Assembly (NCBI RefSeq): GCF_026625605.1
Contig: NZ_CP113054.1
Location: forward strand, 3,472,001-3,536,000
Direction of reading: 5' to 3'
Origin: Luteolibacter sp. SL250
GTDB lineage: Bacteria; Verrucomicrobiota; Verrucomicrobiia; Verrucomicrobiales; Akkermansiaceae
Length of the DNA: 64,000 nucleotides
Shown here: positions 33,225 through 45,200 of the stretch, in pieces
How the letters are laid out: every line of letters starts with the position of its first letter
How positions within the stretch are numbered: the first letter of the stretch is position 1
Program-made: the position numbers and the translations under genes
Notes under the pieces: generated by a model
Database searches by the model: none
What the model was told of the DNA's origin: nothing
What the model saw: the letters and a program-made list of their open reading frames with translations, nothing else

Positions 33225-33842
33225 TCACGCGTCCAGCGAAGCCAGCGGCGACGGGATGGCCACCACCTGCATGCCGGCACGCTGCGCGGCGAGAATGCCG
33301 GCAGGCGCATCCTCAAGTGCCAGGCAGCGCGCGGGATCGACACCCATCAGCTTCGCGGCACGCAGGAACACATCCGGAGCGGGCTTTCCTTCCGCCACAT
33401 CTTCCGCGGTCACGACTTCGTCGAACCAGTCGGAAATGCCCACGGCCTTGAGGGTCTTTTCGATCACATGGCGGGAGCCGCCGGTGGCGATCGCCATCGG
33501 CACCTTGCCTTGCAGGGAGCGGGCGAAGTCCGCCACCTCACGGATGAGGCACACGGAGCCCATGCGCTTCAGGAAAGCCTCGCGCTTCGCAAGGGCGACG
33601 GCCTCCGGATTCAGCTTCAGGTCATACTCGCTGTTCAGGTCCACTACGATGTCCCTCGTAGGTCTGCCGCCCATGGCGATGAAGACATCCTCCTTGAAGA
33701 CACCACCGGCGCCATAGATGGAAAGCGCCTCGCACCATGCCTCGAAATGCGCGGGCATCGAGTCCACCAGTGTGCCGTCACAATCGAAAATCACGGCATC
33801 AAAGCCGTCGGTTGGAAATGAAATCGGACCTACGCTTGTCAT
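33225..33842 (-). CDS. HAD-superfamily phosphatase/phosphomutase, beta-phosphoglucomutase-like
   Basis: A 205-residue cytoplasmic hydrolase. HAD motif I is VIFDCDGTLVDS (nucleophile Asp20, acid/base Asp22), motif II MAIATGGSR, motif III Lys in EGKPAPDVFLRAA, and motif IV CLALEDAPAGILAA. The helical cap between motifs I and II is of the small C1 type, as in beta-phosphoglucomutase and sugar-phosphate phosphatases. The family members dephosphorylate or isomerise small sugar phosphates; the substrate here is unknown. The start is ATG 33842. It lies divergent from the lipid-modifying fusion gene and upstream of guaB. Confidence 0.88.
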   Translation of the reverse strand: MTSVGPISFPTDGFDAVIFDCDGTLVDSMPAHFEAWCEALSIYGAGGVFKEDVFIAMGGRPTRDIVVDLNSEYDLKLNPEAVALAKREAFLKRMGSVCLIREVADFARSLQGKVPMAIATGGSRHVIEKTLKAVGISDWFDEVVTAEDVAEGKPAPDVFLRAAKLMGVDPARCLALEDAPAGILAAQRAGMQVVAIPSPLASLDA

Positions 33843-34002
33843 GTGCGGCGCACGGCTTAGGGGGACATGCCCCTAAAGACAAGCTCGACGCTTGAAAAAG
33901 CGCTATCGATGCCCCAAATCATGCCAACAGTTGTTCGAATCCAACGAATTTTGCGCCGTCAGGAAAATCAGCTTCATCGCAGCGTATCATTCCTATCCAG
34001 TT

Positions 34003-36522
34003 ATGAGTAAAACTCGTCCGGTCCGGGTCCTCTTCGTCGTGTTGTGGTTGCTCGCCGGTTTTTGTGCCGGAGCGACGGAAGATCATGTCCAGTCCCTCGA
34101 ACTTTCCCGGGGCGCCGGCCATGTCCATCTCTACCGCCAGACGGAGCGTCCAACGGCGGTCATCGTCTTCGCCTCCGGTGACGGAGGCTGGACGAACTGG
34201 GAGGATGAAGTGGCCAACTGGCTGGCGGATGCCGGCTGGTGGGTGGCCGGGCTGAACTGCGGCAACTATGCGGAGAGCCCCTACGACGGGGATCTGCTGG
34301 CGGAGGACTTCCAGCGACTGGCAAAGTCCGCCAACGCCCCCGCAGGCACTCCCCTCTTCTATGGTGGTTGGTCGATGGGGGCGGTGCAGGCCGTCGCCGC
34401 CGCGGGGAACGAAAGACCACCCGAACTGAAAGGGTTGCTCCTGCTTTCCTGCGGAGCCAGGGGCAGATATGGACTGGAACTGAAGGACAAGCTGGGCGTC
34501 GCCCCCACGGGCGCGGGCACCTTCGGCCTGACCGATTTCTCCGACCGCATGCCCGGCCTGCGCATCGCCCAGTTCCAGGGCGGGGCCGACTTCATCTCCA
34601 GCACGGCCTGGATCCAGAGCCTGCCGCAGACCGCCGCGCACACCGCACTCTATGAGATGCCCCGCTACAACCACGGCTTCGACGGTCCGGACCCGAAGTT
34701 CAGACCCTCCCTGCTGAGGGGCATGGGCTGGTTGCAGGGGAATGACTCGCTCGCCCCGGAAAGCCCACGCACCGCCCTGCCCTGGGGCCTGTCCCCGTTA
34801 TGGCCCGCGGCGGCGGCGGCCATGGGGCTGGCGCTCATTTTCCTGTTTTCCAAACGGCACGCCATCCGCCTGCTGGTGACCGCCGTCCTCCTCATCGGCC
34901 TCATCAACCTGCTGGAGGCGCTGATGCCGAAGTCCGCGGACGTGATCGACTGGATGCAGCAATGGCTGCCGCTGGGAGTGAGCGAGGACAGCCGCCTGCT
35001 GATGCTCCTTTCCGGACTCTCCCTGCTGTTCCTCGCCCGCGGCCTGAGCCGGAGAAAGAAGGTGGCCTGGTGGCTGGCGGTCGGGTTGCTCTCCGTCTCC
35101 GCCGCGCTGCATCTCGTGCGCGCCTTTGACTGGCACCACTCCGTGGCGGCTCTGGTACTGCTCCTTCCTCTCATCCGGTGGCGGAAGGAATTCGTCGCCA
35201 TGTCAGACGCGCCGTCCGTCCGGCTTGGCCTCATCGCCGCCCCGGTGGTGTTCGTGGTGCTGGTCATCTTCGGCACGGCGCGGATCCATGACCTGGGGGA
35301 GTCCGGAAAGCTGCCGGAGCCGCTCGACTGGCTTTCATCCGCCACCGCCGCGCTGAATGCCACCGTGGGCCTGCCGGGGAATCCACAGGGTTCCGGCGGG
35401 GACAACTCCGCCATGGAGCATTTCCTGGGACGCATGCGCTTCACCGGCATCGCCTGCGGCACCGTGGTCCTGCTGCTCATGCTGCGCCCGGTGCTGGCGA
35501 AGCGCAGGCACGTTTCGTCCCCGGACGAGCGGGAGAAAGCGGCGGACATCCTGGCCCGCCACGGCAATGACCCCAGCGATCCCTTCACCCTGCTGCCGGA
35601 CAAGCACTATTTCTTCCACCCATCCGGTGAAGGCTACGTCGCCTTCGCCAACTGGCGGGAGATGGCGGTGGCGCTGGCGGACCCGGTGTGCGCGCCGGAG
35701 ATCCGGAGGGATCTGGTGGACCAGTTCGCCTCCTACTGCCGCAGCCAGGACTGGACGCCGCTGTTCTACGGCACGGGCAGCGCGCACCGCAGCCTGTATG
35801 AACAGGCCGGCCTCATCACCTTCAAGGTGGGCGAGGACGCCCGCATCCCGCTGGCGGAGTTCAGCCTCGCGGGAGGGAAGTTCCAGAACCTCCGTACCGC
35901 CCGCAACAAGGCGAAGAAGGAGGGACTTTCCTTCCGTTGGTACGATCCATCGGCAGGCGTGGACCATGGACTGGAAGCGCAGCTCCACCTCCTGTCCGAC
36001 GCGTGGCTGCGCTCGAAGAGCGGCGGCGAGATGACTTTCGACCTCGGCGCGTTCTCGCTCGCGGACATCCGCGAACGTGGGTGCGCCGTCGTGCTGCTGC
36101 CGGACGGAAAAGTGGAGTGCTTCGCCACCTGGATCCCCTACGCCCGCGGCACCGGCCGCACCCTGGACCTCATGCGTGGACGCGGCTCCCCGGGTGGCAT
36201 CATGGATTTCCTCATCCTGGAAAGCATGGACCATTTCAAGGAAGAGGGCGTCACCGAGATCAGTCTCGGCAACGCCCCGCTGGCGAACACGGAGACGGAC
36301 CCGCAGCAGCTTTCCCGGGAGGAACGGCGGGTGAAGTTGATCTTCGACCGCTTCGACCGGTTCTACCGCTACAAGTCCCTTTTCGATTTCAAACGGAAGT
36401 ACCACCCCGCCTGGCAGGGCCGCTACCTGGCCTACCCGCCGGGCACCCTGCTCGCCCGCATCGGCCTGGCGGTGGCCGCAGTCCACCTCCCTGGAGGTTT
36501 CCGCGGTCTCATCAAATCCTGA
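34003..36522 (+). CDS. Fusion of VirJ/AcvB-type hydrolase and MprF-type aminoacyl-phosphatidylglycerol synthase
   Basis: An 839-residue membrane protein from ATG 34003; the frame runs 37 codons further upstream without features. Residues 1-23 are a signal-like segment. Residues 50-245 match the VirJ/AcvB alpha/beta-hydrolase type: FASGDGGWTNW (57-67), nucleophile loop YGGWSMGAVQA (120-130) and a candidate catalytic His in RYNHGF (His224). About seven hydrophobic segments follow (270-497). Residues 515-830 are an MprF C-terminal (DUF2156) domain, with FQNLRTARNKAKKEG and RGSPGGIMDFLILE. By family knowledge, MprF transfers an amino acid from tRNA to phosphatidylglycerol in the cytoplasm, and AcvB hydrolyses lysyl-PG in the periplasm. 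The predicted topology fits both. One protein may thus make and remove charged PG. Confidence 0.8.
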   Translation: MSKTRPVRVLFVVLWLLAGFCAGATEDHVQSLELSRGAGHVHLYRQTERPTAVIVFASGDGGWTNWEDEVANWLADAGWWVAGLNCGNYAESPYDGDLLAEDFQRLAKSANAPAGTPLFYGGWSMGAVQAVAAAGNERPPELKGLLLLSCGARGRYGLELKDKLGVAPTGAGTFGLTDFSDRMPGLRIAQFQGGADFISSTAWIQSLPQTAAHTALYEMPRYNHGFDGPDPKFRPSLLRGMGWLQGNDSLAPESPRTALPWGLSPLWPAAAAAMGLALIFLFSKRHAIRLLVTAVLLIGLINLLEALMPKSADVIDWMQQWLPLGVSEDSRLLMLLSGLSLLFLARGLSRRKKVAWWLAVGLLSVSAALHLVRAFDWHHSVAALVLLLPLIRWRKEFVAMSDAPSVRLGLIAAPVVFVVLVIFGTARIHDLGESGKLPEPLDWLSSATAALNATVGLPGNPQGSGGDNSAMEHFLGRMRFTGIACGTVVLLLMLRPVLAKRRHVSSPDEREKAADILARHGNDPSDPFTLLPDKHYFFHPSGEGYVAFANWREMAVALADPVCAPEIRRDLVDQFASYCRSQDWTPLFYGTGSAHRSLYEQAGLITFKVGEDARIPLAEFSLAGGKFQNLRTARNKAKKEGLSFRWYDPSAGVDHGLEAQLHLLSDAWLRSKSGGEMTFDLGAFSLADIRERGCAVVLLPDGKVECFATWIPYARGTGRTLDLMRGRGSPGGIMDFLILESMDHFKEEGVTEISLGNAPLANTETDPQQLSREERRVKLIFDRFDRFYRYKSLFDFKRKYHPAWQGRYLAYPPGTLLARIGLAVAAVHLPGGFRGLIKS

Positions 36523-36546: not shown

Positions 36547-37920
36547 TCAACTCCGGTAGGTCCCCGCGGCCACCTGCATCCGGTCAGGGCCACTGTGGCT
36601 GAACGCGACGTCCCCCTCGATGACGACGCCCGGCTCGAAATGCACCGGCCCGTCCACCCCGAGAGAGCGGCAACCAAGCAATCCCGGCACGCCCAACGGC
36701 TCCAGTTGGTCCACCAGCTTGTAGTCGTCGGAAAGGGTGATCACCGGCGGGATGCCATTCCGTTCCGCAGCCAGGCGGACCTGGCCGTTGGGGAGGATCT
36801 CATAGGCGTCCGAACGCAGCGCCAGCAGGTCGCTGGTGGTCTTCACCGGGGCGAAGCGGCTGCGCGGAACCTCGACCGCCAGCGAGCCTTCGAAACACTC
36901 GATCGCCGCCCCCATCGCCACCTCAAGCTGGATGACCGGAGTGGATTTCTTGTCACGCGGGTCCACCGTCTTGCGGTTCTTGATCATCGGCAGCGGCAAC
37001 ACGCCGGCGTCCGCCTCCAGTTGTTCCTTCAGCAGGTCCAGCCGCAGCCAGAGCGAGTTGGTGTTGAAGAACCGGTGCTCGTCGATGTTCTGGAACGCGT
37101 CGATGTCCTCGTCCGGGCACTGCGCCACCTCACGCAGCAGCAGCCTTCCGTCGCTTTTCCTCACGGCCAGGTGGCCGCCCTTGCGGTCCGCCCCGGTACG
37201 CCGCGTGACCTCCATCATGAACGGGGCGCCGGAATTCGCGAAATACTCCAGCAACGCCGGGTCCAGGATCGCACCGAGGTTGTCCGAGTTCGAGACGAAG
37301 GCATACTTCACGCCCTCCGACAGCAGCCGGTCCAGCCAGCCGCTGCCGACCAGCGCCGGGAAAAGATCACCATGGCCGGGAGGGCACCACTCCAGGTCCA
37401 TGTCCGCCGGCCACTCCACCGGTGCCAGCGTGGCCGCGTCGATCTTCGGGATCTGGTTCTGCATCAGCTCCACCTCGGCCGCGTCCGCCAGCCCGTCCGC
37501 TGCATACCGCTCCAGATGGGACAGCGTGTCCCCGCTGGTGCTGAAGCTGTTCATCAGCAGCAGGCGCACGTTCGCGCCGCTGGATTTCCGCAGGTCGAGG
37601 ATCTGCCGCACCATCAGGTCGACGAAGTTCACCCCGTCGCGGATCGGCAGCAGGCTCTTCGGCCCCTGCAGCCCCATCCCGGTCCCCAGACCTCCGTTGA
37701 GTTTGACCACCACCGCCTGGGAGAGCAGCGCCTTGCCCGCCTCCGTCGCCCGCAGTTCCTCGGAGGACGGAATACCGTCCGCAGGACGGATGGAGCTTTC
37801 CGGGATCATCCCCGTTTCGTCGCGCAGCAGCGCTTCATAATTCCGCCGGAAGGCTCCGATCGCGGCTTCTCCCATACCTGCTGCCGCCATCTTTGATTGG
37901 AATGCGTCGAAATTTCCCAT
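36547..37920 (-). CDS. UTP--glucose-1-phosphate uridylyltransferase, eukaryote-type (UDPGP family)
   Basis: It forms UDP-glucose from UTP and glucose-1-phosphate. From ATG 37920 it has 457 residues. The nucleotide-binding motif is KLNGGLGTGMGLQGPKSLLP, the form found in eukaryotic UGP2 rather than in bacterial GalU. Other family segments are FVSNSDNLGAILDP, RKGGHLAVRKSDG, FFNTNSLWLRL and the left-handed beta-helix end GPVHFEPGVVIEGDVAFS. A frame open to 38019 lacks family similarity. UDP-glucose feeds envelope glycans and glycogen or trehalose routes. It converges with the MprF fusion gene, whose stop is 25 bases away. There is no sign of recent transfer in base composition by eye. Confidence 0.92.
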   Translation of the reverse strand: MGNFDAFQSKMAAAGMGEAAIGAFRRNYEALLRDETGMIPESSIRPADGIPSSEELRATEAGKALLSQAVVVKLNGGLGTGMGLQGPKSLLPIRDGVNFVDLMVRQILDLRKSSGANVRLLLMNSFSTSGDTLSHLERYAADGLADAAEVELMQNQIPKIDAATLAPVEWPADMDLEWCPPGHGDLFPALVGSGWLDRLLSEGVKYAFVSNSDNLGAILDPALLEYFANSGAPFMMEVTRRTGADRKGGHLAVRKSDGRLLLREVAQCPDEDIDAFQNIDEHRFFNTNSLWLRLDLLKEQLEADAGVLPLPMIKNRKTVDPRDKKSTPVIQLEVAMGAAIECFEGSLAVEVPRSRFAPVKTTSDLLALRSDAYEILPNGQVRLAAERNGIPPVITLSDDYKLVDQLEPLGVPGLLGCRSLGVDGPVHFEPGVVIEGDVAFSHSGPDRMQVAAGTYRS

Positions 37921-38206
37921 GAATGTGATGTTCAGCAGCACTGGAGCATTAAGACATACCCTGGTCACGCTGAAATTTGCGGAGTTTTTTTGGCCCAACG
38001 CGGAATTTTGTAACGCCACTCCGCCCGATCGAAACTTCCGCTCCAGACAAATGTTCTCCCGTCAAATGTGCCTCAAATTCAACCAATCATAAATCAAACG
38101 ATTGATTGATCCTCGTTGTTAGAAGCGCTCACTATCAGACCTTTATGCTGTCAATTACGTAATCGCGTAACCCATTTCTGTCCGCTTTTGTGCTAATCTC
38201 CGCCCG

Positions 38207-39269: not shown

Positions 39270-40832
39270 TCAGAAGCGGCGTTTCATCAGCGCACGGAGG
39301 TCTCCTGGGTTCACCGGCTTGGTGAGATGCTCGTCGAAGCCGGCCTCGGAGGTCCTTTTGCGGTCCTCCTCGCTCCCCCACCCGCTCAGGGCGACAATCC
39401 ATGCGCCCGGCTGGATGCTGCGGATCTTCCGCGCCGCTTCATAGCCGTCCACCACCGGCATGCCCAGGTCCAGGCACACCAGGTCCGGGGCGAAAGACTC
39501 CGCCGCCTTGATGGCCTGCGCGCCGTCGTAGGCCACCGAGGTTTCCATCCCCTCCATGATGAAGAACATGTTCAGGATGTCGGCGGTCGCCTTTCCGTCA
39601 TCCGCAATGAGCACCTTCAGCTTCTGCGGGGATGCGGCGTCCCGCTCCCCCTCCACCTCCCGTCCGTCAACCGGGGTCCCCTTGACCAACCCCGGAAAGA
39701 TGACGGTGAACTCGGAACCTTTCCCCTCCCCGCCGCTTTTCAGGGAGATATCCCCGCCGTGCATGTCCACCAGCGATTTCACCAGGGTCAGGCCGATGCC
39801 CAGCCCGTCCTTCGCCCCCGCCGCCCCTTGGTCGAACAGGTCGAAAATGCCCTCCTGGTGCTCCGGCTTGATGCCCTTGCCATTGTCCTTCACGGAGATC
39901 GTCAGTTTTCCGTCCTCGTCCGCCACCCGCAGGCAGATCTCCCCACCCCGCGGGGTGTATTTCGCCGCGTTCGACAACAGGTTGGCGATCACCTGTGCCA
40001 GGCGGTGGCTGTCCGCTTCAATCCGCCAGTCCGCCGGGGCGTTCACCATCGAGAACCGGTGGTCCATGCGGGTGATGAGCGGCTGCACGGACTCCACCGC
40101 CGCGTCCACCACCTCCGCCACGGAGATCCCATCAACCTGCAGTTCGATCTTCCCCATCGTGATGCGGGAAACGTCCAGCAGGTCATCGATCAGGCGGGCC
40201 ATCTGGCTGGTCTGCCGCTTCATCATCCCCGCCATCTTCTCCACCAACGCCGTATCGCCGGGGCTCCTCAGCAGGATGTCCACCCCGGTGAGGATGGGGG
40301 CGATGGGGTTGCGGAGTTCATGCGCCAGCATCGCCAGGAACTCATCCTTGGTGCGGTCCTCCTTCTCCAGCCGTGCGTTGGTCGCGGCCAACTGTTCATT
40401 GAGGTCCTGGAGCCGGTTCTGGCTTTCCTTCAGGTCCTGCCGCTGCCGGGCCAAGTCATAGAAGGTGCCCGCCTTGTTCAGCAGGATCGCCGGGTCGATG
40501 GGCTTCAGCAGGAAATCCACCGCACCCGTCTCATATCCCTGGATGCGGCGCTGCTGGTCCACGATGCCCGCCGTGAGGAAAATGATGGGCACCGCCTTGG
40601 TCCGCTCCGTGCCGCGCATCATCTCCGCAAGCTCGAACCCGGTCATCTCCGGCATCTGCACGTCCACGAAGGCGAGCGCGATCTCATGCACCAGCAGCAG
40701 TTCCAGCGCCTCCCGCCCGGAACGGGCCTTCAGCAAGGTGAGGCCGTCCCGTTTCAGGATGGCCTCCAGGGCGATGAGGTTCGACTCAAGGTCATCCACA
40801 AGGAGGAAGTTGATGTCAGGCTTGGGACTCAT
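39270..40832 (-). CDS. Response regulator-histidine kinase-response regulator hybrid
   Basis: A 520-residue soluble signalling protein with no membrane segment. Residues 5-125 are a receiver domain (phospho-acceptor Asp in FVDVQMPEM). A coiled coil follows, then HisKA with FLAMLAHELRNPI (His) and HATPase with LLSNAAKYTP, DNGKGI, GLGIGLTLVK. A second receiver occupies residues 400-520 (CLDLGMPVVDG, LTKPVNPGD). It is last in the operon, one base after cheB. The N-terminal receiver probably gates the kinase, and the C-terminal one accepts phosphate from it or another kinase. The output is not obvious: there is no DNA-binding or enzymatic effector. Confidence 0.93.
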   Translation of the reverse strand: MSPKPDINFLLVDDLESNLIALEAILKRDGLTLLKARSGREALELLLVHEIALAFVDVQMPEMTGFELAEMMRGTERTKAVPIIFLTAGIVDQQRRIQGYETGAVDFLLKPIDPAILLNKAGTFYDLARQRQDLKESQNRLQDLNEQLAATNARLEKEDRTKDEFLAMLAHELRNPIAPILTGVDILLRSPGDTALVEKMAGMMKRQTSQMARLIDDLLDVSRITMGKIELQVDGISVAEVVDAAVESVQPLITRMDHRFSMVNAPADWRIEADSHRLAQVIANLLSNAAKYTPRGGEICLRVADEDGKLTISVKDNGKGIKPEHQEGIFDLFDQGAAGAKDGLGIGLTLVKSLVDMHGGDISLKSGGEGKGSEFTVIFPGLVKGTPVDGREVEGERDAASPQKLKVLIADDGKATADILNMFFIMEGMETSVAYDGAQAIKAAESFAPDLVCLDLGMPVVDGYEAARKIRSIQPGAWIVALSGWGSEEDRKRTSEAGFDEHLTKPVNPGDLRALMKRRF

Positions 40833-40833
40833 A

Positions 40834-41439
40834 TCAGGAAAGGGTTCCGCCGGTTGGTTTCATGGCGTTGAGGAAGGTGGCGATGCCTTCCAGATCCAGC
40901 ACATAGGCTGCAGGGCAGGCGGAGATGGCGGAGGCGGGCATGTTCCGCCCTTCCGCGGTCGATGGATTCTGCACCAGGGCGCAGCCGCCGGCGGCGGACA
41001 CCGCGGCAAGGCCGGCGGCCCCGTCTTCGTTGGACCCGGTGAGGATCACGCCGGTGAGGCCGTCGCCGAAGACCGCCGCGGCGGACTCGAACAACACATC
41101 CACAGAAGGGCGTGAATAGTGGACCGCCTCATCCGAAGACAACGCCAGTGTGAAGTCCGGGTTCACCAGCAGGTGATAGTCCGGCGGGGCGAAATAGATG
41201 GTCCCGGGAACCAGCGGCTCCTTGTCCTCCGCTTCCTTGACCTGCATCGGACAGCGCTCGGAAAAGATCGCGGAAATCAGGCTGTCCGAATGCCGGGGCA
41301 GATGCACCACCACCATCACCGCATATGGATATCCGGCGGGCAGCGCCGGCAGGATGCGGCTGAGCGCCTCGATGGCCCCCACGGAGGCACCGATGACCAC
41401 CGCCGGAAACGGATCGTTGATCCGCACCTCCGTGTTCAT
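40834..41439 (-). CDS. cheB: CheB-type methylesterase without receiver domain
   Basis: A 201-residue CheB catalytic domain, which removes methyl groups from glutamate residues of receptors and deamidates glutamines. The likely triad is Ser19 in GASVGAIEAL, His46 in VVHLPRH and Asp139 in LTGSNEDGAAG. The N-terminal receiver domain found in chemotaxis CheB is absent, so phosphorylation by a kinase cannot control it directly. The start ATG 41439 overlaps the cheR stop in ATGA. No chemoreceptor, CheA or CheW is in the window. It may instead act on the neighbouring kinase (see findings). Confidence 0.93.
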   Translation of the reverse strand: MNTEVRINDPFPAVVIGASVGAIEALSRILPALPAGYPYAVMVVVHLPRHSDSLISAIFSERCPMQVKEAEDKEPLVPGTIYFAPPDYHLLVNPDFTLALSSDEAVHYSRPSVDVLFESAAAVFGDGLTGVILTGSNEDGAAGLAAVSAAGGCALVQNPSTAEGRNMPASAISACPAAYVLDLEGIATFLNAMKPTGGTLS

Positions 41440-42272
41440 GCCCCACCCTCCTTCTGATAGATCCGTTCATGCCGGTCGAACTCGGAGAAAGCCGCCGCGT
41501 GCGAGGAGAAGCGCAGGCTCTCCTTCGAGCCGATCCCCAGGAACCCCTTCCTCGAAAGCGAGTCCTTGAACAGGCCCACCGCCCGGTCCTGCAGCTCGCG
41601 GTTGAAGTAGATCAGCACGTTCCGGCAGGACACCAACTGGGTCTCCGCGAACACCGCGTCAGAGACCAGGCTGTGGTCGGAGAACACGGTGCGTTTCCGC
41701 AGGCTCTTGTCGAAGATCGCCCGCCCGTAGCCGGTGGAGTAGTAGTCGGAAAGGGAGCTGCGCCCGCCGGATGCCCGGTGGTTCGCCGTGAAAAGGGCCA
41801 GCCGGTCCAGATCATAGACGCCCGCCTGCGCTTTCTCCAGCGCATCCGTGTTGATGTCCGTGGCGTAGAAGATCGTGCGGTCTTCCAGACCCTCCTCGCG
41901 GAAGGTGATGACCAGTGAGTAAAGTTCTTCTCCGGAACTGCAACCCGCCACCCACACCTTCAGCGAGGGGTAGGTCCTCAGGTGCGGCAGCACCTTTTCC
42001 CGCAGCGCCCGGAAATAATGGGGATCCCGGAACATCTCGCTCACCTGCACGGTCAGGAACTGGAGCATCTTCCCCATCATCCCCTCCTCATGCAGGATGA
42101 GGTGCTGGAGCTGGGAGAAACTCGACAGGCCGAAATGCAGGCACGCCTGCCCCAGCCTCCGCCGCAGGGACGCCTCGGAGTAGCCCCGGAAATCATAGTG
42201 ATACCGCCTGTGGATCGCCTCCAGCAGCAATCCCAGCTCGATCTCCTCGATTTCCGATTCCTTAGATTTCAT
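41436..42272 (-). CDS. cheR: CheR-type protein-glutamate methyltransferase
   Basis: A 278-residue SAM-dependent methyltransferase. The N-terminal helical domain (residues 1-80, YDFRGYSEASLRRRL) is followed by VSEMFRDPHYF, the SAM-binding WVAGCSSGEELYSL, ATDINTDAL and the conserved CRNVLIYF. Chemotaxis CheR methylates glutamates in the coiled coils of receptors. I start it at ATG 42272, which overlaps the hybrid kinase stop in ATGA; a GTG four codons earlier is possible. There is no pentapeptide-tethered receptor in the window. Coupling to both neighbours by 4-base overlaps suggests tightly matched synthesis with the kinase and CheB. Confidence 0.93.
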   Translation of the reverse strand: MKSKESEIEEIELGLLLEAIHRRYHYDFRGYSEASLRRRLGQACLHFGLSSFSQLQHLILHEEGMMGKMLQFLTVQVSEMFRDPHYFRALREKVLPHLRTYPSLKVWVAGCSSGEELYSLVITFREEGLEDRTIFYATDINTDALEKAQAGVYDLDRLALFTANHRASGGRSSLSDYYSTGYGRAIFDKSLRKRTVFSDHSLVSDAVFAETQLVSCRNVLIYFNRELQDRAVGLFKDSLSRKGFLGIGSKESLRFSSHAAAFSEFDRHERIYQKEGGA

Positions 42273-45200
42273 CGCGGCATCCACACACGCACCAGGGAGA
42301 GCAGCTTCTCCACATCCAGCGGCTTGGCCAGGTAGTCATTCGCCCCGGCGGCCAGGCATTGCTCCTGGTCGCTGCGCATCGCCTTCGCGGTGAGGGAGAT
42401 GATCGGCAGTTTCTTCCATTCCTGCCTGCGGCGGATTTCCTTCATCGCGGTGATGCCGTCCATCTCCGGCATCATCACGTCCATCAGGACGAGATCGACC
42501 TTCTTCGCGGGATCCAGGAGTGACTCCTCCAGCGCCACCAGGGCCTCACGGCCATTCCGGGCGATCTTGACCTTCACCCCGCGGCCTTCCAGCAGGCTTG
42601 TCAGAGCGAAGACGTTCCGCACGTCATCCTCCGCGATGAGAATCCGGCGGCCTTCCAGCGCCTCATCCCGGCTGGTCGATTTCTCGATGAGCCTGCGTTT
42701 CTCCGCCGGAAGTTCGGACACCACCTGGTGCAGGAACAGGGTCACCTCATCCAGCAGGCGTTCCGGTGATTTCGCGCCCTTGATGATGATGGATTTCGAA
42801 TACTTGCGCAGACGCTGTTCCTCCTCGGAGCTCAGCACCCGACCGGTGTAGACGATGACCGGAGGGAAGGAGTAGGTGTGTTCCTTGCTCAGCTTCTCCA
42901 GCAGCGCGAAGCCGGACGCATCCGGCAGGCTGAGGTCCAGCACCATGCAGTCGAAGGTGGAACCGCCGAGCTGCTCCAGGCACTCCGCCGCCGTGCTGGC
43001 GCAGACCGCCTCGACATCCCGGGAACCCAGCAGGTCCCTCATGGCGTCCATCTGCACCGGATCATCCTCCACCAGCAGCACGCGGCGCACCTTCTGGCTG
43101 ATCTTCACCTCCAGCTTCCTGAAAGTCTCCACCAGTTGCTCCCGCTTCACCGGCTTCATCATGTAGCCGACCGCCCCCAGGGAGAGCGCGGTGTGGGTGT
43201 AGTCGCTCGCGGAAACCACGTGGACCGGAATGTGGCGTGTGTTTGGATCACTCTTCAACTGCTCCAGCACGATGAGGCCGCTGTTGTCCGGCAGGCCGAC
43301 GTCCAGGACGATGGCGCTCGGCACGAACCGCTTCGCCAGCCGCAGGGCTTCCTCCGCGCTGGTGGCCACCAGGCACTCGAAACTCATCTCCCGCGCCAGA
43401 TCATAGACGATCTCCGCGAAGGGCTTGTCATCCTCCACGACAAGGATCACGCGGCCCCGGCCGCTGATGGACGCCCGGTCATCCGGCACGCTGCCTTCCG
43501 TGATGGGCGCGGCCGGAGGTTCCGGAGCATGGCGAGATGTTTCTTCCAGCAGCCGCGCCAGGTCCGGCGCCTGCTCCGCGGGAACAGCCGCCGGAGCGGG
43601 ACGCGGAGTGGCCGCTTCCCACACTTCCGGTGCCAGCAGGGTGAAGGTGCTGCCTTTCCCGATCTCGCTCACCAACCGCAGTTCACCCCCCAGCAGGCGG
43701 GCCAGGTTCCGGGAAATGGACAGACCCAGTCCGGTTCCGCCGTACTTCCGGCTGGTCCCCGCATCCCCTTGGAAGAATGGGTCGAAAATCGCCCGGCGCT
43801 TTTCCGGGGCGATGCCGATGCCCGTGTCGCTCACCTTGAAGCTGAGCTGGTTTCTCGGACCACGCCCCACGCGCAGCGCGACCTCCCCCTTTTCGGTGAA
43901 CTTCAGCGCGTTCGAGAGCAGGTTCTTGAGGACCTGCTCCAGCCGCTGCGGGTCGGTCTCCATCGTCGCAGGCAGGCCCGCATCCACCTCCACGGTGAGT
44001 TTCACGCCTTTCTCGCGGGCGATCGGCTCGAAGATGTCCCGCATGTTGCCCGCGACATCCGCCAGCGTCACCCGCACCGGGGAGATGTCCATGTGTCCGG
44101 CCTCGATCTTCGACAGGTCCAGCACATCGTTGATCAGGTTCAGCAGATCATTGCCGGCGGACTCGATGGTGTGCGCGTATTTCACCTGCTCCGCCGTCAG
44201 GTTTCCGCCCCGGTTTTCCGAAAGCAGCTTCGCCAGGATCAGGGAGGAGTTCAGCGGCGTGCGCAGCTCGTGCGACATGTTCGCCAGGAAGTCCGACTTG
44301 TAGCGGCTGGCCTGCTCCACCTCCGCGGCCTGGATCTCCAGCGCCACCTTCGAGTCCAGAAGGTCGGCCTTCTGCCGCTCCAGGATCTGGGTCTGCTCCT
44401 CGAGCTGGGTGTTGATCTGCTCCATCTCCGTCTGCTGCAGCTCCAGCCGGGCCTGGGTTTCCTTCAGCGCGCGCGTCTGCTCGTCCAGTTCCTCGTTGGA
44501 CACCCGCAGTTCCTCGCTCTGGGTCTGCACCTCCTCGCTCTGCCGCTGCGTCTCCTCCAGCAGTTCCTGCAGGTTCTCCCGGTAGAGGGAGGACCTGACG
44601 GCCATCCCCACCAGTTCGCCGATCTGTGAGAGGAATTGCTGCTTCTCCTCATTCAGGGGATGGATGAAGCCCAGCTCGATCACCGCATTGACGGTGTCAT
44701 CCACCTGCGCCGGAATCACCAGCAGGTGCCGCGGCACACCCTCACCCAGCCCGGAAGCCACGGTGAGGTAACCTTCCGGAACATCATCGACGCGCTGCAA
44801 CGCTTTCTCCGTGACCGCACGGCCGAGCAAGCCCTCGCCCACCGCGAATTTCGAAGGCACGGCACCGTTGGAGGTCCCCACCAGCGCCACCCGTTCGAAA
44901 CCACCCTTGCGGCTGACGAACATCACGCCCGCGTGGGCGTCCACGTACCGCGAGAGAAATCCGAGGACGCCCTCCGCCAGAAGCTCCAACCTGAGCTCCC
45001 CGGCCATGGATGCCGCCAGCTCGATCCGTCCCGCCTGGGACCACTCCTGGCGCTTCCTCTGTTCTTGGTTGCGGCGGAGCAGCCACATGACGGAATAGGA
45101 AAGAACCAGTCCCAGCACCGCCGTGATCACTCCGCTGGCGATGGTCGCCTTGTGCGTCTGCTCCATTTCCGAGATCCGCAGGTCCCGGACTCTCCGCTCC

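Follow-up and report, generated by a model that had tools for sequence, protein, structure and literature searches.

The gene and its domains

The window, i.e. the whole stretch of 64,000 nucleotides from Luteolibacter sp. SL250 that was analysed, carries an open frame running from ATG to TGA and coding for 839 residues plus stop (Table 1). A longer, TTG-started version of this frame begins at position 33892. A sequence-only reading of this DNA had noticed in one frame the hydrolase motifs GDGGW and GWSMGA and a candidate His224, which are found at residues 59-63, 122-127 and 224. Pfam recognizes PF06057 (VirJ) on residues 53-170 (E=5e-9, 36.8 bits for a cut-off of 22) and PF09924 (LPG_synthase_C) on residues 516-811 (E=3e-74, 250.1 bits for a cut-off of 27.5). 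A Hydrolase_4 match (2e-6) overlaps the VirJ match. The membrane part gives weak Pfam/NCBIfam matches to tRNA-synt_2_TM (0.032) and to a potassium-channel model (3e-4). Further along the window (39270-42284, minus strand) lie frames resembling a response-regulator/histidine-kinase hybrid, CheB and CheR, named by eye.

Table 1. Predicted features of the fused gene and its flanks (positions in the window)
Feature	Position	Strand	Evidence
Gene for fused hydrolase / membrane / aminoacyl-lipid synthase	34003..36522	+	ORF and Pfam
Signal-peptide-like start, residues 1-25	34003..34077	+	K4, R5, R8; hydrophobic 7-25; cleavage-site-like AGA-T, judged by eye
VirJ/AcvB-type alpha/beta hydrolase domain, residues 26-250 (borders set by eye)	34078..34752	+	PF06057, AcvB 9xhm profile match, AF2 model
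GDGGW, residues 59-63	34177..34191	+	D60 aligned to AcvB Asp271
GWSMGA, residues 122-127	34366..34383	+	Nucleophile Ser124 aligned to AcvB Ser336
Arg155	34465..34467	+	AcvB Asp370 position; Arg in 22/22 A1 domains
Asp196, probable catalytic acid	34588..34590	+	Invariant in 22/22 A1 domains
His224, probable catalytic histidine	34672..34674	+	Invariant in 22/22 A1 domains
Extra transmembrane segment TM-A, residues 263-281	34789..34845	+	Absent from four unfused short synthases; hydrophobicity scan
Six transmembrane segments, residues 290-498	34870..35496	+	Match MprF Subdomain 2; subdomain borders from PMC8131360 (excerpts)
LPG_synthase_C / DUF2156 GNAT-type aminoacyl-lipid synthase, residues 516-811	35548..36435	+	Pfam; PDB LpiA 6lvf 2.6e-50
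DLMR, residues 722-725	36166..36177	+	Alignment with LpiA-type synthases
HAD-like gene, one flank	33225-33842	minus	Named by eye from translation
Gene read as UTP-sugar uridylyltransferase, other flank	36547-38019	minus	Named by eye from translation

Membrane part and topology

The topology was read from a Kyte-Doolittle scan and not from a trained predictor. About seven hydrophobic segments and a signal-like start had been noticed before, and the scan places seven segments between the domains (263-281, 290-308, 330-348, 354-372, 381-399, 408-426 and 480-498, the fifth being weak at 1.34) and one hydrophobic stretch, residues 7-25, at the start. Another weak stretch at the end of the synthase (815-833) was not counted as membrane. 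The predicted inner loops (8, 5 and 8 residues) contain 3, 4 and 1 Lys/Arg and the predicted outer loops (21, 8 and 53 residues) contain 1, 1 and 4, a distribution that would fit the positive-inside rule mostly, not fully. Among nine fused proteins scanned, six have seven inter-domain segments and three have six, with one segment below the threshold. Starts resembling secretion signals were also seen by eye in other fused proteins.

The signal-like start and the odd number of segments predict a periplasmic hydrolase, and hydrophobicity puts the two domains on opposite sides of the membrane, the hydrolase outside and the transferase inside, as the sequence-only reading had it. The best evidence for this arrangement is a predicted extra crossing, itself read from the hydrophobicity scan. 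Four unfused short synthases (see below) start at the segment matching window residues 290-308, with no counterpart of 263-281 before it; genome G417 is a possible exception, as its short synthase may start upstream of the ATG taken as start. To join a synthase that starts inside to a hydrolase that ends outside, the number of added crossings must be odd; a single one is seen. TM-A would take the chain from outside to inside. One extra segment probably came with the fusion, placing the hydrolase outside and the synthase inside.

Synthase domain

The C-terminal part had been read as DUF2156/MprF, and the Pfam, NCBIfam and PDB matches all point to MprF rather than to another GNAT; its solved relatives are LpiA/MprF (2.6e-50). 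The NCBIfam MprF model (NF033480) is matched from position 317 to 838 of 841, scoring 370.2 bits where the cut-off is 600. The window protein lacks model positions 1-316 and with them Subdomain 1, the flippase core. The LpiA-type rows share with the window protein three residues of DLMR (D, M and R) and the end motif K-x-K-x-x-P-x-W, all invariant (alignment A2, 23 rows). D722 is probably the Asp whose mutation kills LpiA (D750N); we infer the matching of the numbers, the Shinella MprF having an Asp at 749. A second LPG_synthase_C match in the window's genome is weaker (81.9 bits; G000:C1:2645429-2646205, locus L002) and lies in a frame of 382 residues. Frames of 380-410 residues with weaker matches of this kind occur in several other genomes, some of which carry the fusion.

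The S. aureus MprF deprived of the bulk of Subdomain 1 was described as making Lys-PG that is moved poorly, and Subdomain 1 supplied as a separate protein as restoring this movement to some degree (PMC8131360, excerpts). A flippase can indeed be supplied apart, since plasmids of Chroococcidiopsis and Rubrobacter pair a short synthase with a PF03706 gene. An obligate stand-alone flippase partner of the fused protein was considered and is unsupported: PF03706 was found outside MprF in just six of the nine fused genomes checked. Among these nine, no stand-alone PF03706 protein was found in G053 and G087, and in G061 PF03706 occurs only within a full MprF. One of the four genomes with an unfused short pair has a stand-alone PF03706 protein, and none was seen in G142, G145 and G340.

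Hydrolase domain

The N-terminal part was compared with its relatives in an alignment, A1, of 22 hydrolase domains: 10 fused, 4 beside short synthases and 8 beside full MprF. G053, with its parts on two contigs, was taken among the fused rows by assumption. Two hydrolases, L055 of G316 (cut) and L063 of G243 (weak), were excluded from A1, the column counts and the tree. The degenerate hydrolase L066 of G135 enters neither A1 nor the hydrolase tree, nor the counts of 22 and 12. The A1 profile ranks AcvB (9xhm) first among solved structures (1.5e-18), with monoglyceride lipases next (5e-7). Searched singly, the window protein has AcvB as a weak solved relative (0.005 for the whole chain, 1e-4 for the hydrolase alone). 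VirJ is matched at E 0.001 or better by 18 of the 22 domains, that of the window included, Hydrolase_4 by 14 and the NCBIfam lipase model by 4; the window hydrolase itself has no NCBIfam match. With the best Pfam and profile scores going to VirJ/AcvB, the proposed AcvB/VirJ type holds and an unrelated hydrolase does not.

Ser124, Asp196, His224 and Asp60 are invariant across the 22 domains. AcvB residue numbers were transferred by counting along the alignments, in which Ser336 and Asp271 of AcvB are kept as Ser124 and Asp60, and His433 as His224, although AcvB has two adjacent His and the exact one is ambiguous. The activity of AcvB was reported to depend on Ser336, Asp271, Asp340 and Asp370 (PMC13197417, excerpts). 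The last two align with Val128 and Arg155 in the window protein, and their equivalents are substituted in all ten fused rows. Asp340 is conserved among the homologues aligned in that source (PMC13197417, excerpts); in A1, with L066 excluded, its site is acidic in 12/12 unfused domains versus 0/10 fused ones. The Asp370 site is Arg in every A1 domain. Brucella VirJ and the Pseudomonas homologues have Thr or Ser there, and Asp370 is tied to lysine by the authors (PMC13197417, excerpts). The membrane-loop Trp378 of AcvB is not kept in the alignment with the fused hydrolases. By sequence, the N-terminal domain is a VirJ/AcvB-type Ser-Asp-His hydrolase, and a divergent relative of AcvB since Val128 and Arg155 occupy the Asp340 and Asp370 sites. 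Because these residues read the head group in AcvB, Lys-PG is not a safe guess as substrate; a lipid bearing another amino acid than Lys, or a diacylglycerol acceptor, is conceivable.

An AF2 model of the hydrolase alone (two rows) has an alpha/beta-hydrolase fold with a pLDDT of 69 and a pTM of 0.74. The full-length model (three rows) was set aside with a mean pLDDT of 46. Monoglyceride lipases lead the Foldseek rows, and mixed hydrolases and esterases the VIA rows. AcvB is not in the best 50 of either, in a structure library that ends on 8 April 2026 and possibly does not hold it. As modelled, the fold alone resembles many esterases and would not narrow the family.

Distribution

Own and close relatives were surveyed with all places scored, and 14 of 59 genomes matched. 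In four single-frame fused genomes of this survey no second hydrolase or full MprF match was found, and it is to these 59 genomes that the claim of no separate pair in fused genomes refers. In G061 the fused protein occurs together with a separate full-length MprF (C37 and C73).

In the surveys of the order (386 genomes) and of the phylum (387), at most two places were scored per genome. Matches occur in 51 of the order genomes and are lacking in 335 (rows sorted manually). A phyletic survey had been suggested by the sequence-only reading; the single-frame fusion is found in 20/386 genomes, counting G552, whose frame is broken after residue 720. In G053 the two parts lie at two contig ends. 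Synthase and hydrolase genes were also said to be often adjacent, and in 19/386 genomes the hydrolase gene adjoins MprF on the same strand, MprF being full length wherever the contig is long enough. The hydrolase lies downstream in 15 of them and upstream in 4 (G316, G443, G521, G636); in the pair of G487 the hydrolase match is weak. MprF and hydrolase lie on different contigs in G441, and ten genomes have partial, synthase-only or hydrolase-only matches.

Within the phylum survey 26 genomes match, and in four of the 387 (G142, G145, G340, G417) the hydrolase lies directly upstream of a short synthase of 562-607 residues, in another reading frame. The class of G061 has matches in 9/193 genomes, three of them fused and all of one genus. 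The nearest named relative, 70% identical, is in Haloferula sp. BvORR071 (Verrucomicrobiota). A VirJ-type domain in G135 (L066:1625-2404, minus strand), with Ser changed to Gly, His to Lys and Asp60 to Lys, is apparently an inactive hydrolase; the phylum survey, which scored two of the three candidate places of G135, gave no synthase place for this genome. On plasmids with full mprF, an annotated AcvB/VirJ hydrolase adjoins in two of the three named loci examined; none adjoins in the third, where the match is near the end of the record. None of 134 matching plasmid records spans 80% of the window protein, a result that says little about chromosomes.

Relation to known systems

The closest known system is the LpiA-AcvB operon of Agrobacterium, a Lys-PG synthase/flippase and a periplasmic Lys-PG hydrolase, with the same two families on opposite membrane sides and the Ser, the His and Asp271 kept. 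It consists of two proteins instead of one, and LpiA has the flippase core that the fused chain lacks (PMC13197417, excerpts). Unlike the fused chain, AcvB also has a second, inactive hydrolase-fold domain as well as Asp340 and Asp370 (PMC13197417, excerpts). VirJ, the single-domain Lys-PG hydrolase of the Ti plasmid, likewise has one hydrolase domain behind a signal sequence, and its Ser60, Ser127 and His223 would correspond to Ser58, Ser124 and His224 here, the last matching step being inferred (PMC13135905, excerpts); it is, however, soluble, periplasmic and unfused. Full-length MprF/LpiA (NF033480) shares Subdomain 2 and the synthase, but has Subdomain 1 where the fused chain has the hydrolase. 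The plasmid sets of Chroococcidiopsis and Rubrobacter resemble the unfused pairs in having a hydrolase upstream of a short synthase, but this hydrolase is a PF00756 esterase of another family, the genes are separate and a PF03706 flippase-like gene lies beside them. These sets, in a cyanobacterium and an actinobacterium (L068:2962-6946 and L069:2629-6381: esterase, short synthase, flippase-like gene), may be read as an MprF divided over two genes and preceded by a hydrolase of a different family.

The sequence-only reading did not recall this domain order as described, and likewise no description of the fusion was found among the matches listed in the literature searched, which covered few subscription papers. 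A main-text word search of PMC11630815, on MprF sequence diversity, gave no 'hydrolase', 'fused' or 'fusion', and VirJ and AcvB are treated as separate proteins in PMC13135905 (excerpts). Both domains and their pairing are already known, and the single-chain fusion is what appears to be new.

Proposed mechanism and alternatives

The gene appears to encode one membrane protein with a lipid aminoacylation enzyme inside and a hydrolase outside that probably reverses it. We give a probability of about two in three to its being a single-chain version of the known pair of aminoacyl-lipid synthase and aminoacyl-lipid hydrolase, the activity being judged from sequence. At the inner leaflet, the synthase would load PG or diacylglycerol with an amino acid taken from aminoacyl-tRNA. 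As the chain has no flippase core, the lipid would cross the membrane via another protein or unaided. The outer domain, which the rest of the protein anchors to the membrane, would then cleave the aminoacyl ester. LpiA was reported to bind AcvB and to raise its share at the membrane (PMC13197417, excerpts); the tether may be a permanent form of this binding, keeping the hydrolase at the membrane beside the source of its substrate. The lipid level would be controlled via tRNA supply, lipid flipping or hydrolase activity and not via the ratio of two proteins. The earlier proposal that one chain makes and cleaves the lipid to set the net charge of the membrane stands for the presence of both domains and for their opposite sides; its functional part goes beyond the evidence, with no Subdomain 1 to bring the lipid to the outer hydrolase and an acceptor that may be PG or diacylglycerol. 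Since the fused form has lost the acidic head-group residues known from AcvB, 'net charge' is not a safe summary.

The same architecture could act on an aminoacyl-diacylglycerol or other neutral lipid instead of aminoacyl-PG. The AlaDAGS and LysX homologues of Actinobacteria, which like the synthase part of the window protein have six predicted transmembrane helices and a GNAT domain, mainly make Ala-DAG and Lys-DAG (PMC10580965, excerpts), so that PG is not certain as the acceptor. No hydrolase is described in their chain, and LysX has a lysyl-tRNA synthetase instead. The fused synthase belongs to the short type and groups with three other short forms, not with full MprF, and monoglyceride lipases follow AcvB as solved relatives of the hydrolase profile. 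However, that tree grouping was obtained without LysX and AlaDAGS, MprF outscores LysX by a wide margin over the whole chain (370 against 151 bits), and the closest relative of the hydrolase is a PG-ester hydrolase; a neutral lipid is doubtful, if still to be reckoned with.

The outer domain could also be an esterase or acyltransferase for a different substrate, for which the fusion merely provides an anchor to a membrane protein. The loss of the AcvB head-group residues, the missing flippase core and the generic esterase matches of the fold would suit this explanation, which is made unlikely by the fact that genomes repeatedly pair hydrolases of this family with the synthase, in various arrangements, and by AcvB being the best solved relative by sequence profile. 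A one-way relay, in which the amino acid from tRNA is carried over on the lipid and then released or passed to an extracellular acceptor by the outer serine hydrolase, is more speculative and rather improbable. If true, the lipid would be a mere carrier and the system would export or attach amino acids rather than set membrane charge.

Origin of the fusion

That the fusion arose artificially from two adjacent genes, through a frame or assembly error, as the divided G053 and the broken frame of G552 might suggest, is refuted for the family by the order survey and hardly credible: six single-contig genomes (G000, G302, G453, G458, G579, G623) have the same two-domain frame, the linker is near-identical in seven of nine aligned fused proteins, and the four unfused short pairs lie in different reading frames. 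Chance or assembly error is ruled out by the shared frame and the linker, and the fusion is real.

Trees were built from 34 synthases and 24 hydrolases, the G316 synthase (contig end) being left out of the former. The ten fused rows form one clade in both (99/98 for the synthase, 99/99 for the hydrolase). The short synthases with a neighbouring hydrolase gene (3-4) join the fused clade of the synthase tree at 100/100, away from full MprF; the hydrolase tree does not resolve their partner hydrolases as nearest relatives of the fused rows. The simplest reading is that a hydrolase gene and a short-synthase gene, lying side by side, fused once. The dN/dS ratio is below 0.4 in all computable estimates (six pairs by four parts, one not computable), with dS from 0.67 to 2.3, and both domains are under purifying selection.

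Synthase and hydrolase were proposed in the 2026 AcvB structure paper to work as a single module (PMC13197417, excerpts). The natural fusion, whose extra membrane segment would hold the two domains on opposite sides, is independent evolutionary support for this proposal. As a one-gene system, it lets synthesis, flipping and removal be tested apart, and because the flippase core is absent it poses directly the question of how the lipid crosses the membrane. No aminoacyl-lipid work in Verrucomicrobiota was found among the matches listed in the literature searched, and the fused gene points to aminoacyl-lipid turnover in this phylum.
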